A stretch of DNA of 64,000 nucleotides, taken from contig CAMBOV010000002.1 of NCBI GenBank assembly GCA_945869475.1, positions 1 to 64,000 on the forward strand, read 5' to 3'. The DNA comes from Singulisphaera sp. GP187 (GTDB lineage Bacteria > Planctomycetota > Phycisphaerae > Phycisphaerales > SM1A02). The notes under the pieces were generated by a model that searched no databases, was not told where the DNA came from, and worked only from the letters and a program-made list of their open reading frames with translations. Each line of letters opens with the position of its first letter. The first letter of the stretch is position 1. Made by a program: the position numbers and the translations under genes. Positions 31,570-36,106 of the stretch are shown here, piece by piece.

Positions 31570-32499
31570 CTACTGCCCCCAACCGCTGCTCATTGCGCGC
31601 GACATGTCAGGCACTTGTCCTTGCATCGTGTTCATCTGCGCCTGCATCTGCTGTCGTTGCTGCATCATCGCGCTCAACAACTGCTGATTTTCTGCGGCCG
31701 TCTGCGGCGGACGGGTCACTGCCAGACCCTGCGGAGTCTGCACGATGAAACTTCCGCTCGACGCGCTTGACCCGCCAGTCGCTCCCGCACCGCTCGCACC
31801 ACCCGACTGTGCCGCGCCACTCTGCACCAGCATCGGCGCGCCGAAAGGAGTTTGCGGACTCGAGAGTCCAGGATTCTTGCTCGTCTGCGTCATCACCAGC
31901 TTCACGGAGCCTGCAGGTTGATCGCCGACTTGAAAGGTCGTGTTCCACATCACGGTGCCATCCGACTGAAAGAGAAATGTCGTCGCAAGCGAGCGGGGTT
32001 GACCATTGGCCGTGATGAGCGAGTTCGACGTGACAAAGGTCAGCGCGCTGGCGGCCTCGTCGTAGATGCCAGCAGAGAGAAACATCGAACGGTCACCATT
32101 GGTGATCTCACTGCGTGTGAACCCGACCCCTGGCGTATATCCCATCACATCGATTGTCTGAAGCGCTGAACCAGACGAGTTGAAGAGCACGTGATCGCCC
32201 GAGAGAAAATTTCCGCCCAGTGTCCAACCGAACTGCGTCGTGCCTTGAAATGGACCGTTCGTGGTGCCATCCGCTGCAACGGATGTTCCCTGCACCGCCC
32301 ACGATCCAACGAGTTGCGTTAGCAACGCGAGCGCCTTCGCATCATCGGCACCCGCGGGAACGATCGGTCCGAGCGGCGCGCGCGGTTGAGGCGGCTGCGT
32401 CGGCTGTGCTTGCTGCGCACCGAGAATCAATGCGATCACCGCGCACGAGCCCGCTCCGACGATCGATCCAACCACGAACGACTGCGTTTTTGTCTTCAT
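31570..32499 (-). CDS. Secreted or membrane-anchored DUF1579-like protein
   Basis: The 309-aa protein has an N-terminal hydrophobic segment (about 9-28) that may be a signal anchor and a Pro/Gln-rich linker. A DUF1579-like beta-barrel region (about 55-215) follows, with LVGSWAVQGT, TTQFGWTLGGNFLSGDHV and MGYTPGVGFTRSEITNGD. The C-terminus is Gly/Ser-rich and then strongly Gln/Met-rich (MMQQRQQMQAQMNTMQG). Function of DUF1579 is unknown. Its ATG overlaps the stop of the dCMP deaminase gene by four bases. Confidence 0.68.
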   Translation of the reverse strand: MKTKTQSFVVGSIVGAGSCAVIALILGAQQAQPTQPPQPRAPLGPIVPAGADDAKALALLTQLVGSWAVQGTSVAADGTTNGPFQGTTQFGWTLGGNFLSGDHVLFNSSGSALQTIDVMGYTPGVGFTRSEITNGDRSMFLSAGIYDEAASALTFVTSNSLITANGQPRSLATTFLFQSDGTVMWNTTFQVGDQPAGSVKLVMTQTSKNPGLSSPQTPFGAPMLVQSGAAQSGGASGAGATGGSSASSGSFIVQTPQGLAVTRPPQTAAENQQLLSAMMQQRQQMQAQMNTMQGQVPDMSRAMSSGWGQ

Positions 32500-32975
32500 T
32501 TCGCAGAGGGTACCGAAGCAGGAAAGACGCGGTATCCCACACCAGCTTCAGCAAACATCTCGCGCGCAAGTGCCAAAGAGTGCTGCCAGTGCTCGTCACC
32601 ACCTGCCATCTCGTGGGTCACGACTTCAGCGATTCCACATTGAATGATCGCGAGCGAACACTGCACGCATGGACTGAACGTGCAGTAGATCGTGCATCCC
32701 CTCGGTGTGACCCCGTTGCGCGCGCACTGCACAATCGCGTTGAGCTCAGCATGACACATGAGGTCATACTTCACAGGGCGCTCGAGCCGCTGCGGATTGT
32801 CGGCGATCCCTTGCGGAAGTCCATTGAATCCAGTGCTGATGATCTGCTTCGCGGGCGAGACGATGATCGCTCCGACGCCACGCGAGGGATCTTTGCTCCA
32901 CGTCGCAATGCGCTGTGCGAGATCGAGAAATCGAAGATGCCAGTGATCGGCGAATGTTTCAGAGGAACGGATCAC
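32496..32975 (-). CDS. dCMP deaminase family protein (ComEB-like)
   Basis: The 159-aa zinc deaminase is predicted to convert dCMP to dUMP for dTTP synthesis. The zinc and proton-shuttle motif CHAELNAIVQC (74-84) and the second motif FSPCVQCSLAI (99-109) are intact, as is the nucleotide-binding GVGAIIVSP. Length matches the dCMP deaminase/ComEB type rather than cytidine deaminase. It lies two bases after the HtrA-like gene stop and overlaps the next gene by four bases. Confidence 0.88.
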   Translation of the reverse strand: MIRSSETFADHWHLRFLDLAQRIATWSKDPSRGVGAIIVSPAKQIISTGFNGLPQGIADNPQRLERPVKYDLMCHAELNAIVQCARNGVTPRGCTIYCTFSPCVQCSLAIIQCGIAEVVTHEMAGGDEHWQHSLALAREMFAEAGVGYRVFPASVPSAK

Positions 32976-32977
32976 CG

Positions 32978-35221
32978 CTAGCTCGTGCCTCTGAGTTCGA
33001 GTGCGTGCAGGTTCATGAGTGGTCCTCGCAGTTTTCCGCCCGTCTTAATTTCGATGATCGCTCGACCGGCACTCTCGACGTGCACTGCGCCAACGTCGAC
33101 TCCTTGAAAGTCAGCTGTGTCGGTTGTGGCTTTCGTGTTGCCCGTCAAGAGCACCTCACCCATCTGCACCAAAAAGTTCTGACCAGCGAGTTCGGATGGA
33201 CAGGCTTGCATCACGCGCACAGAGTAATCGCCAGGTTTGGTGAACTCGACGAGCCACCGCACCGAGTCGTTTGAGTCGATCCATCCCACAATTGCAGCTG
33301 GTGCGTCATCGACCTGCGCGAGCCGCAACGACGTTCCAACGATCTCGGCGTTCTTTGCCTCGAGGCGAATCAGTGAACCCAGCTGTCGCGTCACGATCCC
33401 ATTATCAAGAGGATTGATCAGCTTCATGGGCTCGGGATGCTCCTTCGCAGTCGCGACCATGCGCGTGATTGCTTCTTGCACCGTCGCCGAAGCGAGCGCA
33501 TACGACTTCGTGCGATCGGTTCGCGCGATATTCACGCCGATGACCCGCCCATCAAGATCAACCAGTGGCCCTCCCATCTGATCGGCACGCAGCGTCGTGT
33601 CATGCTGAATGACGGCGCCGAAACCACTCGAGCGGCGACTTGCAGGAAAGCGCGTGGACGATGGCGATGGACCCTGCTCAACGGGTCGCGGTGTGAGGCG
33701 CGCTCGCAAGACTTCTTCGCCATCTGCGGTCACTCGCACAACATTGATGATCTCTCCAGCCGCGTGACGGCGGACAACTTCGCCGAGTTGCGGCTGATTC
33801 TCGACCGTCGCCTCACCGATGCGCGTGATGAAATCTCCTGCGCGCACGCCAGCGCGCGCAGCCGATGTCGCAGGCGGCACAACCATCACAATGACTCCAG
33901 GTCTGTCGCCATGCGCCGCGCGCTCCTCTGGAGTGATCGGTCGAACGCGCACTCCGAGGTAGGGCGATGAGATGTCACTGCGTCCAGGTTGATAGGTGTC
34001 CAAGCTGCGCGCTCCAAATGCGAGTGGACTGCCATCACGTCCAACCGTGAAGAGCAGCGCTCCTGCAGCGGGCGAGACGTCGCGATCGAAGATCGGATCC
34101 TCAAGCACTTCAGAAACTTTAAGCAGCATGAGATCGAGCGGCGCATCCACAGCCATGCGCGTTGCCGAGACCGTCAGTCCATCGGCGAGGGCAACTGAAA
34201 CATCGGCGGATGTCATCCCAACTTCGGATGCCTTTGTGATGATGAAACCCTGCGAATCGGCGACCGTGCCGAAGCAGACGAGTCGATCGTCAACGAAGAC
34301 TCCGACCGTCATCATGATCGCGTCATCGACGACTGAGGCAATCGCTTGCAGAATCTTTGGGTCGGCCTTTCGCGGCGCGTTCTCAGCAGGCGGACCCGAA
34401 TCAACAATGCGCTGCCTGCTGCCCTCGTGTGGCCTTCCTTCGCGCTCGTTCTTTACATCTTCTCCCGTTGCGGCGCCCTGCTGCATGTCGCTCAAGTGCG
34501 ACTTCACGAAATCGATGGTCGTCGCCACATTGAACTCGGGTTCGGCGCCAGCGGTCGAGTTGATTCCGATGAGTCGCCCTTGCAAGTCGAAGACGCCACC
34601 GCCCGAATCTCCTGGCGAGAGTGGAGCATCCATGTAAATCGCAATTCCGTTTGCGCCGTTAAATCGACCCAGTCGCAAGATTGGCGGACGAAAGGGTTCT
34701 TTCTCGATGCCGAACGTGTGACCGAACGCGACGACCCAATCGCCTGGTGCGGTCGTTGACATCGATCCCACTTCTGCTGCAGTCACGTCGAGGCCCGTTG
34801 GATCGAACTTCACGACGCCACAATCTTCGGTGCCATTCCAGTGCAGGCCAGCGGTCCTGCCGGTGGTGGTGGTTCCGTTGGCAAAATAAATCTTCGCCTC
34901 AAGATCTGGCTGCTTGCAGACGTGGCCTGCGGTGAGAATCCACCCGTCCTTTGAGATGATCGTTCCGCTGCCAGACCCGGCCCCCGCTGGATCCATGATC
35001 TCGAGCCCGACACAGGCGTCGAGCACCTTCGCTCTCACGATTTGAATCTGCTTCTCGAGCGCCTTTGCGCTCGGCACATCTGTCATCGCGAAGGTCGCGC
35101 GCTGCTCGACCGACTTGGCCTGCGTGCTTCCATCGACCACCTGCCCATGGCAGATGCTCGCGACCGCACACGGAATGAAAACGCACGGAATGAAAGCAGA
35201 GAGGAGTGTCGCACGCCGCAC
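32978..35221 (-). CDS. Two-domain HtrA-like secreted protease: active domain plus PDZ-split pseudoprotease
   Basis: The 747-aa protein starts at a GTG with a signal peptide (about 1-26). The first trypsin-like domain (about 60-245) has a full triad: His100 (TAGHVC), Asp133 (GTEDCGVV) and Ser206 (SPGDSGGGV). The second, about 300-590, keeps the fold motifs CFGTVADSQGFIITKASEV and PLDLMLLKV (Asp363). It lacks the His, and its Ser is replaced by Met549 in DQMGGPLVDLDG. A PDZ domain (about 419-512, PYLGVRVRPITPEER onwards) sits between the two halves of this dead domain. Residues about 600-747 form a beta-rich C-terminal domain. Likely periplasmic quality control. It follows the kinase gene by 21 bases. 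Confidence 0.87.
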   Translation of the reverse strand: MRRATLLSAFIPCVFIPCAVASICHGQVVDGSTQAKSVEQRATFAMTDVPSAKALEKQIQIVRAKVLDACVGLEIMDPAGAGSGSGTIISKDGWILTAGHVCKQPDLEAKIYFANGTTTTGRTAGLHWNGTEDCGVVKFDPTGLDVTAAEVGSMSTTAPGDWVVAFGHTFGIEKEPFRPPILRLGRFNGANGIAIYMDAPLSPGDSGGGVFDLQGRLIGINSTAGAEPEFNVATTIDFVKSHLSDMQQGAATGEDVKNEREGRPHEGSRQRIVDSGPPAENAPRKADPKILQAIASVVDDAIMMTVGVFVDDRLVCFGTVADSQGFIITKASEVGMTSADVSVALADGLTVSATRMAVDAPLDLMLLKVSEVLEDPIFDRDVSPAAGALLFTVGRDGSPLAFGARSLDTYQPGRSDISSPYLGVRVRPITPEERAAHGDRPGVIVMVVPPATSAARAGVRAGDFITRIGEATVENQPQLGEVVRRHAAGEIINVVRVTADGEEVLRARLTPRPVEQGPSPSSTRFPASRRSSGFGAVIQHDTTLRADQMGGPLVDLDGRVIGVNIARTDRTKSYALASATVQEAITRMVATAKEHPEPMKLINPLDNGIVTRQLGSLIRLEAKNAEIVGTSLRLAQVDDAPAAIVGWIDSNDSVRWLVEFTKPGDYSVRVMQACPSELAGQNFLVQMGEVLLTGNTKATTDTADFQGVDVGAVHVESAGRAIIEIKTGGKLRGPLMNLHALELRGTS
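35170..35195 (-). repeat. 15-bp-period tandem repeat in HtrA-like signal peptide
   Basis: ACGGAATGAAA occurs at 35170-35180 and 35185-35195. On the coding strand this produces the repeated residues FIPC in the signal-peptide core (FIPCVFIPC). It parallels the five-residue duplication in the subtilase signal peptide. Confidence 0.7.
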
Positions 35222-35242: not shown

Positions 35243-36106
35243 CTAGATCGAAATGTTCGCGACCGTCTGCTCGAGTGCCCGCAGTTTCTGCGCGATCTTT
35301 TCCATCGAACGAGGACGGCGCTCGACTTCGAGAGCGAGACATTCCATCACGAGGTCAGAGAGTTCGCGATTAAGACCCGCGACGCGCTCGACTGGGTGAA
35401 CAGTGCCTGGAACAGTGTCAACGCTGCGCGGCTTGCTCGTCCCTGGTACGAGCACTGTCTCAGCATGGTCTCGCACAAGCGCGCGGTACATCGTCGCGCC
35501 AAAGTTGTAGACATCCGTTCGCTCCGTGATCGCGTGTTTGGCCGCCTGCTCTGGCGCCATGTAGCCGGGTGATCCCTGCGTGCGCAACTTAATCGTTCCG
35601 ATCGCACAGGACTGCCCAAGGTCGATGATCTTCGCAGTGCCAAGCACTCCCCACTCGCCAGGCATCATGATGTTGCCAGTCTTCATGTCGGCGTGGGCAA
35701 ATCCCTTTTCGTGGATGTGTGCGAGCCCCTCGGCGACCTCAGCAAACGTCCGAACATAGTCACGCAGCAACTGTGGGGGCTCTTCTTCGAGGGTCGCGGT
35801 ATCGATCATCTCGAGAACGAGTCCAACCTCAGTGACCTGCACGAGTGGACGCTCGCGCTTGAGTGCGATCGCCTTGCGAATCGCCCGGTGCGAAACGTGC
35901 CGAAGTGTGTTGTATTCGTTCTCGACTTGCTGGAGAAAGCGATCGTCTTTGTCGCCGCGGCTCTCATCGAAGATGACGTGCTTCAGCGCGTAGGTGTTCC
36001 CGGAGTCTCGGTCCTTGACCGCATACAACTTGCTACGAGCCCCCTCGCCCAAAAAGGCGACGACCTTGTAACCGAAGAGTTCATCTGCATACAACTTTGA
36101 GCTCAC
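35243..36106 (-). CDS. Soluble Ser/Thr protein kinase (Hanks type)
   Basis: The 287-aa protein is essentially a bare kinase domain. It has a Gly-rich loop LGEGARSKLYAV (19-30), Lys42 in YALKHV, HADMKTGN (catalytic Asp140, Asn145), a metal Asp162 in IIDLG (a DLG variant of DFG) and YMAPEQ. There is no transmembrane segment or sensor domain, unlike most planctomycete PknB-type kinases. The start is GTG at 36106. The gene heads a long run that continues through the HtrA-like protein, dCMP deaminase and on to kynB. Its substrates are unknown. Confidence 0.88.
   Translation of the reverse strand: MSSKLYADELFGYKVVAFLGEGARSKLYAVKDRDSGNTYALKHVIFDESRGDKDDRFLQQVENEYNTLRHVSHRAIRKAIALKRERPLVQVTEVGLVLEMIDTATLEEEPPQLLRDYVRTFAEVAEGLAHIHEKGFAHADMKTGNIMMPGEWGVLGTAKIIDLGQSCAIGTIKLRTQGSPGYMAPEQAAKHAITERTDVYNFGATMYRALVRDHAETVLVPGTSKPRSVDTVPGTVHPVERVAGLNRELSDLVMECLALEVERRPRSMEKIAQKLRALEQTVANISI

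Follow-up and report, generated by a model that had tools for sequence, protein, structure and literature searches.

What could an HtrA-type protease gain from a second protease domain that lacks the catalytic His and Ser and is cut in two by a PDZ domain? The question is raised by a single open frame of 747 aa with a GTG start at 32978-35221 on the minus strand of the window, by which we mean the whole 64,000-nucleotide stretch of the Phycisphaerales contig CAMBOV010000002.1 that was analyzed. The first-pass annotation of this locus had read it as an active protease joined to a PDZ-interrupted pseudoprotease and a C-terminal beta domain, an apparently new architecture that may sense or hold substrates. 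Here we combine residue checks, predicted structures, family-wide conservation and gene context to ask what the second domain is and what it might do for the first.

Layout and predicted fold of the fused protein

From its N-terminus the window protein carries a probable signal peptide, domain 1, a linker, the first half of domain 2, a PDZ domain, the second half of domain 2 and a beta module. The gene, its parts and its two neighbors are as follows:

32978..35221, minus strand: whole gene, 747 aa, an HtrA-like protease domain fused to a PDZ-interrupted pseudoprotease (open reading frame, Pfam, model)
35135..35221, minus strand: probable Sec signal peptide, hydrophobic N-terminus, residues 1-29 (read by eye from the sequence)
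34472..35089, minus strand: domain 1, S1-type protease, residues 45-250 (Pfam, residue check, alignment, fold match)
34922-34924, minus strand: His100, domain 1 triad
34823-34825, minus strand: Asp133, domain 1 triad
34604-34606, minus strand: Ser206, domain 1 triad
33992..34369, minus strand: domain 2, N-terminal half, residues 285-410 (residue check, family conservation, DegS alignment)
34223-34237, minus strand: TKASE motif of domain 2 with Lys330 and Ser332, Ser332 replacing His
34133-34135, minus strand: Asp363, domain 2
33692..33970, minus strand: PDZ domain, residues 418-510, inserted in the L3 loop of domain 2 (Pfam, DegS alignment)
33422..33640, minus strand: domain 2, C-terminal half, residues 528-600 (residue check, conservation, DegS alignment)
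33599-33604, minus strand: His540-Asp541, domain 2, C-terminal half
33575-33577, minus strand: Met549 replacing Ser, domain 2, C-terminal half
33512-33532, minus strand: NIARTDR, domain 2, C-terminal half
32981..33388, minus strand: C-terminal beta module, residues 612-747, DUF5077/CBM35-like below cut-off (Pfam, model, homology)
35243..36106, minus strand: protein kinase gene, 287 aa, a neighbor outside the protein (PF00069, E 2e-29), ending 21 bases upstream
32496-32975, minus strand: dCMP-deaminase-like gene (PF00383), directly following the window gene

Pfam recognizes three Trypsin_2 segments and just one PDZ, at 420-494, which lies inside domain 2, with none directly after domain 1. The whole is probably an exported HtrA-type protease, its first 38 residues being modeled with pLDDT below 50. 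The complete triad claimed for domain 1 was recovered, with His100, Asp133 and Ser206 all at their assigned positions, and is invariant in 24 aligned domain-1 rows; domain 1 is apparently a working protease, its capacity to cut being read from this intact triad. In domain 2 the retained Asp363 and the Met549 at the Ser position lie exactly where they had been read, and the reported loss of His is explained by Ser332, which occupies its position within a conserved T-K-A-S-E motif.

The earlier account further depended on the second region being trypsin-like, and the predicted structures bear this out. An AlphaFold2 model of residues 267-610, built from a 24-sequence alignment (pLDDT 81.5, pTM 0.64), matches HtrA protease domains across both halves, superposing on 7co5_B (AlgW) with Z 24.4 and an rmsd of 2.0 Å over 184 aligned residues, in an alignment that spans model positions 26-327 and draws on residues either side of the PDZ. 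Domain 1 (model 53-253) matches 2z9i_B with Z 25.5 and an rmsd of 2.2 Å over 186 aligned residues, such that both domains adopt the trypsin-like double-barrel fold in the predicted models. The full-length model reaches pLDDT 85.9 and pTM 0.83, the latter being the sole measure behind its inter-domain packing, and all matches listed in fold searches with it are of HtrA type. Together with the DegS alignment described below, the model places the PDZ between the halves of a single trypsin-like fold and not after it, as had been proposed: on the predicted structure, domain 2 is one trypsin-like domain split by a PDZ.

The proposed C-terminal beta domain also has its counterpart in the predicted model, where residues 612-747 are mostly strands. 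Taken alone, these residues score 19.1 bits against DUF5077, vs. a Pfam gathering score of 24.6 bits, and homologous modules of the proteins L133 and L134 score 25.0 and 20.8 bits. The module of the window protein is about 31% identical to the C-terminal modules of L133, L134 and L135, from another family of the same order, and the two of these proteins that were scanned are both alpha-L-fucosidases (PF01120), a hint that it may bind glycans or surfaces.

Conservation of the dead domain and placement of its PDZ

Domain 2 was compared across 80 homologs, each with both halves covered by a single profile hit and with no residue demanded; hits without both halves, including L119, L120, L121, L125, L126 and L127, which carry several inserted PDZ domains, and the fragments L012 and L014 were left out of this count. 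The His position is Ser in 80/80 and the Ser position is never Ser, being Cys in 55, Met in 11, Ile in 9, Val in 3 and Thr and Phe in 1 each, so that the His-Asp-Ser triad is absent from domain 2 throughout. Lys330, two residues before Ser332, and Asp363 are each kept in all 80 homologs, the Gly after the nucleophile position in 78, and His540, Asp541, Asn564, Arg567 and Arg570 in 73, 79, 75, 77 and 78, respectively. Furthermore, Lys330, Ser332, Asp363, His540, Asp541, Asn564, Arg567 and Arg570 are equally conserved in the 55 Cys and the 25 non-Cys members, and among the positions that the Cys members conserve at 90% or more, just 329, 498 and 577, besides 549, fall below 85% in the non-Cys group. 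A residue set kept equally with or without the Cys is what would be expected of a structural or binding role. Identity to the window protein is higher for the C-terminal half of domain 2 than for domain 1 in 16 of 19 relatives, the three exceptions being L017, L020 and L086. As judged from sequence, domain 2 is an HtrA-derived pseudoprotease and not an HtrA protease, and its His and Ser were lost through conserved replacement rather than decay.

The placement of the PDZ is equally specific. In an alignment with E. coli DegS, residues 77-177 and 183-217 of the latter are matched by the domain-2 profile, whose intervening 113 positions are the PDZ; DegQ and a solved DegP-like chain give the same split. 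Loop L3 of DegS comprises residues 176-189 and passes the signal of a peptide bound at the PDZ on to the LD' loop and active site, either within one protomer or in its neighbor (PMC11642142). Since the break falls between the equivalents of DegS residues 177 and 183, and hence within L3, it is the sensor loop itself that houses the PDZ. The PDZ aligns to HtrA PDZ domains and keeps its ligand-loop Gly423 in 80/80 homologs, and the putative sensing or holding of substrates by domain 2 is compatible with the position of the PDZ in L3. The size of the insertion varies: two PDZ domains occupy it in L126 and in the four proteins retrieved from family code f30 (L119, L120, L121 and L127), and four in tandem stand at the same insertion point in L125.

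Distribution, gene pairing and fusion

The same domain order was sought in other planctomycetes and found, fused or as a neighboring gene, in many families of the phylum. Among 392 genomes sampled from the phylum, at least 71 contain domain 2, representing 19 family codes, and the idea of a one-genus oddity was dropped on this count. The 71 are those genomes whose best domain-2 match reaches at least 144 bits, among 121 with a listed match; the other 50 score no higher than 91 bits, with listed matches confined to the PDZ or to a single part. A matching domain-1 type at 160 bits or more is present in at least 68 genomes, the domain-1 search being taken as covering the same 392, and all 68 are among the 71 with domain 2; none of the 392 combines a domain-1 type at this score with a lack of domain 2. 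These counts are lower bounds, as the best five candidates per genome were scored for domain 2 and the best eight for domain 1. Of the other three among the 71, G031 is fused and scores 157 bits, G023 scores 145 bits with its match on another contig, and G394 is a genome of 55% completeness. Lowering the threshold to 140 bits brings the genomes with a domain-1-like match to 89, of which 19 are without domain 2. It is important to note that the domain-1 profile was built from domain-2 partners, which biases its top scores, so that the co-occurrence is supportive and not independent.

Within the genus of the window, 18 other genomes hold the full-length protein in 10 cases, a piece starting at a contig end in 2 and none in 6, and these 6 count against a conserved pair. 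Two close relatives recovered by contig search are Phycisphaerales MAGs with isolate names beginning Baikal-deep. When plasmids were searched with a 367-aa domain-2 protein, none of the 50 records returned matched it over 80% of its length.

A tree of 86 members, selected for Lys330 and Ser332 and thus not evidence for those two positions, comprises 43 fused, 36 split and 7 apart, or 32, 36 and 7 without the 11 rows of the window's genus; L019, L020, L123 and L124 were labeled fused by hand, and the fusion count excludes L018, which is truncated at a contig end. All 34 split pairs checked (of 36, with L018 and L127 left out) have the active protease gene immediately upstream in the same orientation, with gaps between stop-to-stop frames of -200 to +96 bases, and the domain-1 partner carries its own C-terminal PDZ in 34/34. 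Seven of the 86 domain-2 genes have no neighboring domain 1 within up to about 4 kb a side, or less at a contig end, and are counted against pairing; all seven genomes have a matching protease elsewhere. On this tree, whose backbone is weak (36/83 inner branches), fusion or fission is repeated, with at least 10 changes between the fused and separate states, one of which (L127) might reflect a frame disrupted in a single assembly, and at least 11 changes between Cys and non-Cys. Repeated fusion of two genes points to interacting partners, and the neighboring or fused genes suggest a conserved protease-plus-sensor pair in the phylum.

Further arrangements were seen among the relatives. Two proteins, L123 (1921-4431, plus strand) and L124 (2005-4455, plus strand), have three trypsin-like domains per chain in the order dead (read from the sequence), active and PDZ-interrupted dead, the PDZ of L124 being recognized by the family profile only and not by Pfam; such chains are reminiscent of an HtrA trimer. 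Genome G057 (L038, 1393-5825, minus strand; L037) has two tandem fused copies and, on another contig, a split pair. L127 (1443-4398, plus strand), a close relative of the fused L121, consists of two overlapping frames of 304 and 707 aa, by assembly error or as a real split.

The surroundings of the fused gene are partly shared. A kinase match lies upstream of it in 14 of 19 other genomes, with L031 and L032 taken as the same loci as L002 and L003; in L015 it is partial and about 0.8 kb away, and it is absent at L017, L019, L020, L083 and L086. Fourteen of these 19 genomes also have a dCMP-deaminase-like match close to the fused gene; in L015 and L017 it is on the opposite strand. Among the unannotated neighbors, no common theme was seen in 12 loci (9 split, 3 fused).

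A proposed division of sensing and cutting, its rivals and its parallels

In light of these results, we propose, with a probability of about 0.5, that the window protein is an HtrA in which sensing has moved to a non-catalytic partner, such that sensing and cutting are divided. Domain 1 would be the cutter, and domain 2 would take the place of one protomer in an HtrA oligomer. The L3-embedded PDZ of domain 2 would bind exposed C-termini or misfolded substrates of a presumably exported pair, and the signal would run from domain 2 to domain 1, which would be activated or fed via the usual L3-to-LD' contact, across domains or subunits. In other lineages the pair would be two subunits from adjacent genes, and in the lineage of the window one chain, with a domain 1 that has no PDZ of its own. 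More tentatively, we consider possible a planctomycete two-component HtrA, comprising an active protease and a dedicated pseudoprotease subunit with L3 replaced by one to four PDZ domains, in which active and dead protomers would form mixed oligomers and a peptide on the dead protomer would gate the active one in trans. In DegS-type homotrimers sensing and cutting are hard to separate genetically. If sensor (the L3-PDZ on a dead domain) and cutter are indeed different domains or genes, the PDZ-to-L3 relay becomes directly testable; the family also adds a conserved pseudoprotease with a residue signature of its own, spread over many families of one phylum.

The chief rival, which we regard as somewhat unlikely, is that domain 2 is a scaffold that holds the complex together, its PDZ merely tethering substrates or envelope partners without signaling to the active site. 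Plant DEG7 provides a precedent in its degenerated domain, chains with three protease-like domains are in keeping with it, and the sensor could have remained on domain 1, since that domain keeps its own PDZ in all 34 split pairs. Such a scaffold would, however, leave unexplained both why the PDZ is placed in the L3 sensor loop and why Lys330, Ser332, Asp363, His540, Asp541, Arg567 and Arg570 are near-invariant. HtrA proteins can also hold substrates, and domain 2 might accordingly act as a holding chaperone that binds unfolded proteins, or as an inhibitor that restrains domain 1 in place of activating it; we judge this improbable, the invariant Gly423 of the PDZ ligand loop speaking for it and the gene pairing being equally compatible with activation and inhibition. 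There is a slimmer chance still that domain 2 hides an enzyme, a chymotrypsin-fold cysteine hydrolase with a Cys nucleophile and Lys330 or His540 as base, secondarily lost in the lineage of the window: Cys greatly outnumbers every other residue at the nucleophile position and may be ancestral, and the Gly that follows is kept, but 25 of the 80 homologs have Met, Ile, Val, Thr or Phe there with the residue set equally conserved, Cys was exchanged repeatedly on the tree, and the window protein itself has Met. Finally, chance, or the lineage-specific decay of a duplicated protease domain into a non-functional one, to which the lost His and Ser might have pointed, was rejected as having next to no likelihood, given the same replacements in 80/80 homologs from many families of the phylum, a C-terminal half of domain 2 that is mostly better conserved than domain 1, and the gene pairing.

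The proposed division of sensing and cutting can be set against several known systems. With the HtrA/Deg proteases DegP, DegQ, DegS and AlgW, which we take to be MEROPS S1C, the window protein shares the trypsin-like fold in both domains (on the models), the triad in domain 1 and an alignable PDZ; it differs in a domain 2 without His and Ser and in a PDZ that lies within loop L3 and not after the protease domain. Its scores reflect this distance: against NCBIfam TIGR02037 it reaches 124.8 bits and the separate domain-2 protein L071 123.6 bits, vs. a cut-off of 416.2 bits, no NCBIfam model exceeds its own cut-off in the proteins scanned, and in Pfam only trypsin and PDZ models do so (window protein and two separate domain-2 proteins). 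RseP (M50) and Prc/Tsp (S41) likewise have a PDZ within the protease region, but their catalytic folds are unrelated.

The impression of a new architecture held in that no dedicated family model or description was found, but not as regards a protein peculiar to the window, as the family extends over 19 family codes. A PDZ inside an HtrA-type domain, or a planctomycete HtrA pseudoprotease, is not described in the mostly open-access literature searched, as far as its available text goes, and the accessible part of a report of many PDZ proteins in planctomycetes does not mention this architecture (PMC6411480). Nor do the available portions of the accounts of MamO and DEG7 describe a PDZ inside their dead domains (PMC4794232, PMC3473262, PMC4754418).

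As far as these sources extend, the closest functional parallel is the MamE/MamO pair, where an active HtrA likewise stands alongside a degenerate one and MamO promotes MamE-dependent proteolysis non-catalytically (PMC4794232). It is an imperfect precedent: the authors did not detect contact between MamO and MamE, and activation needs the transporter domain of MamO (PMC4794232). MamO keeps His116 and Asp149, carries Thr in place of the Ser, and has a TauE-like transporter domain together with a di-histidine metal site (PMC4794232), whereas the window family has Ser at the His position, Met or Cys at the Ser position and an internal PDZ; the window protein gave no Pfam match to such a transporter domain up to E 10, and its C-terminus is the beta module.

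The closest architectural parallel is plant DEG7, in which an active and a degenerated HtrA domain share one chain and the degenerated domain mediates trimerization (PMC3473262, PMC4754418), one Chlamydomonas member having the order PD-PDZ-PDZ-PDia-PDZ-PDZ (PMC3473262, PMC4754418). The PDZ domains of DEG7 follow its protease domains, whereas that of the window protein interrupts the dead one, and the likeness is one of architecture: in both, an active-looking and a degenerated protease domain are joined in a single chain.
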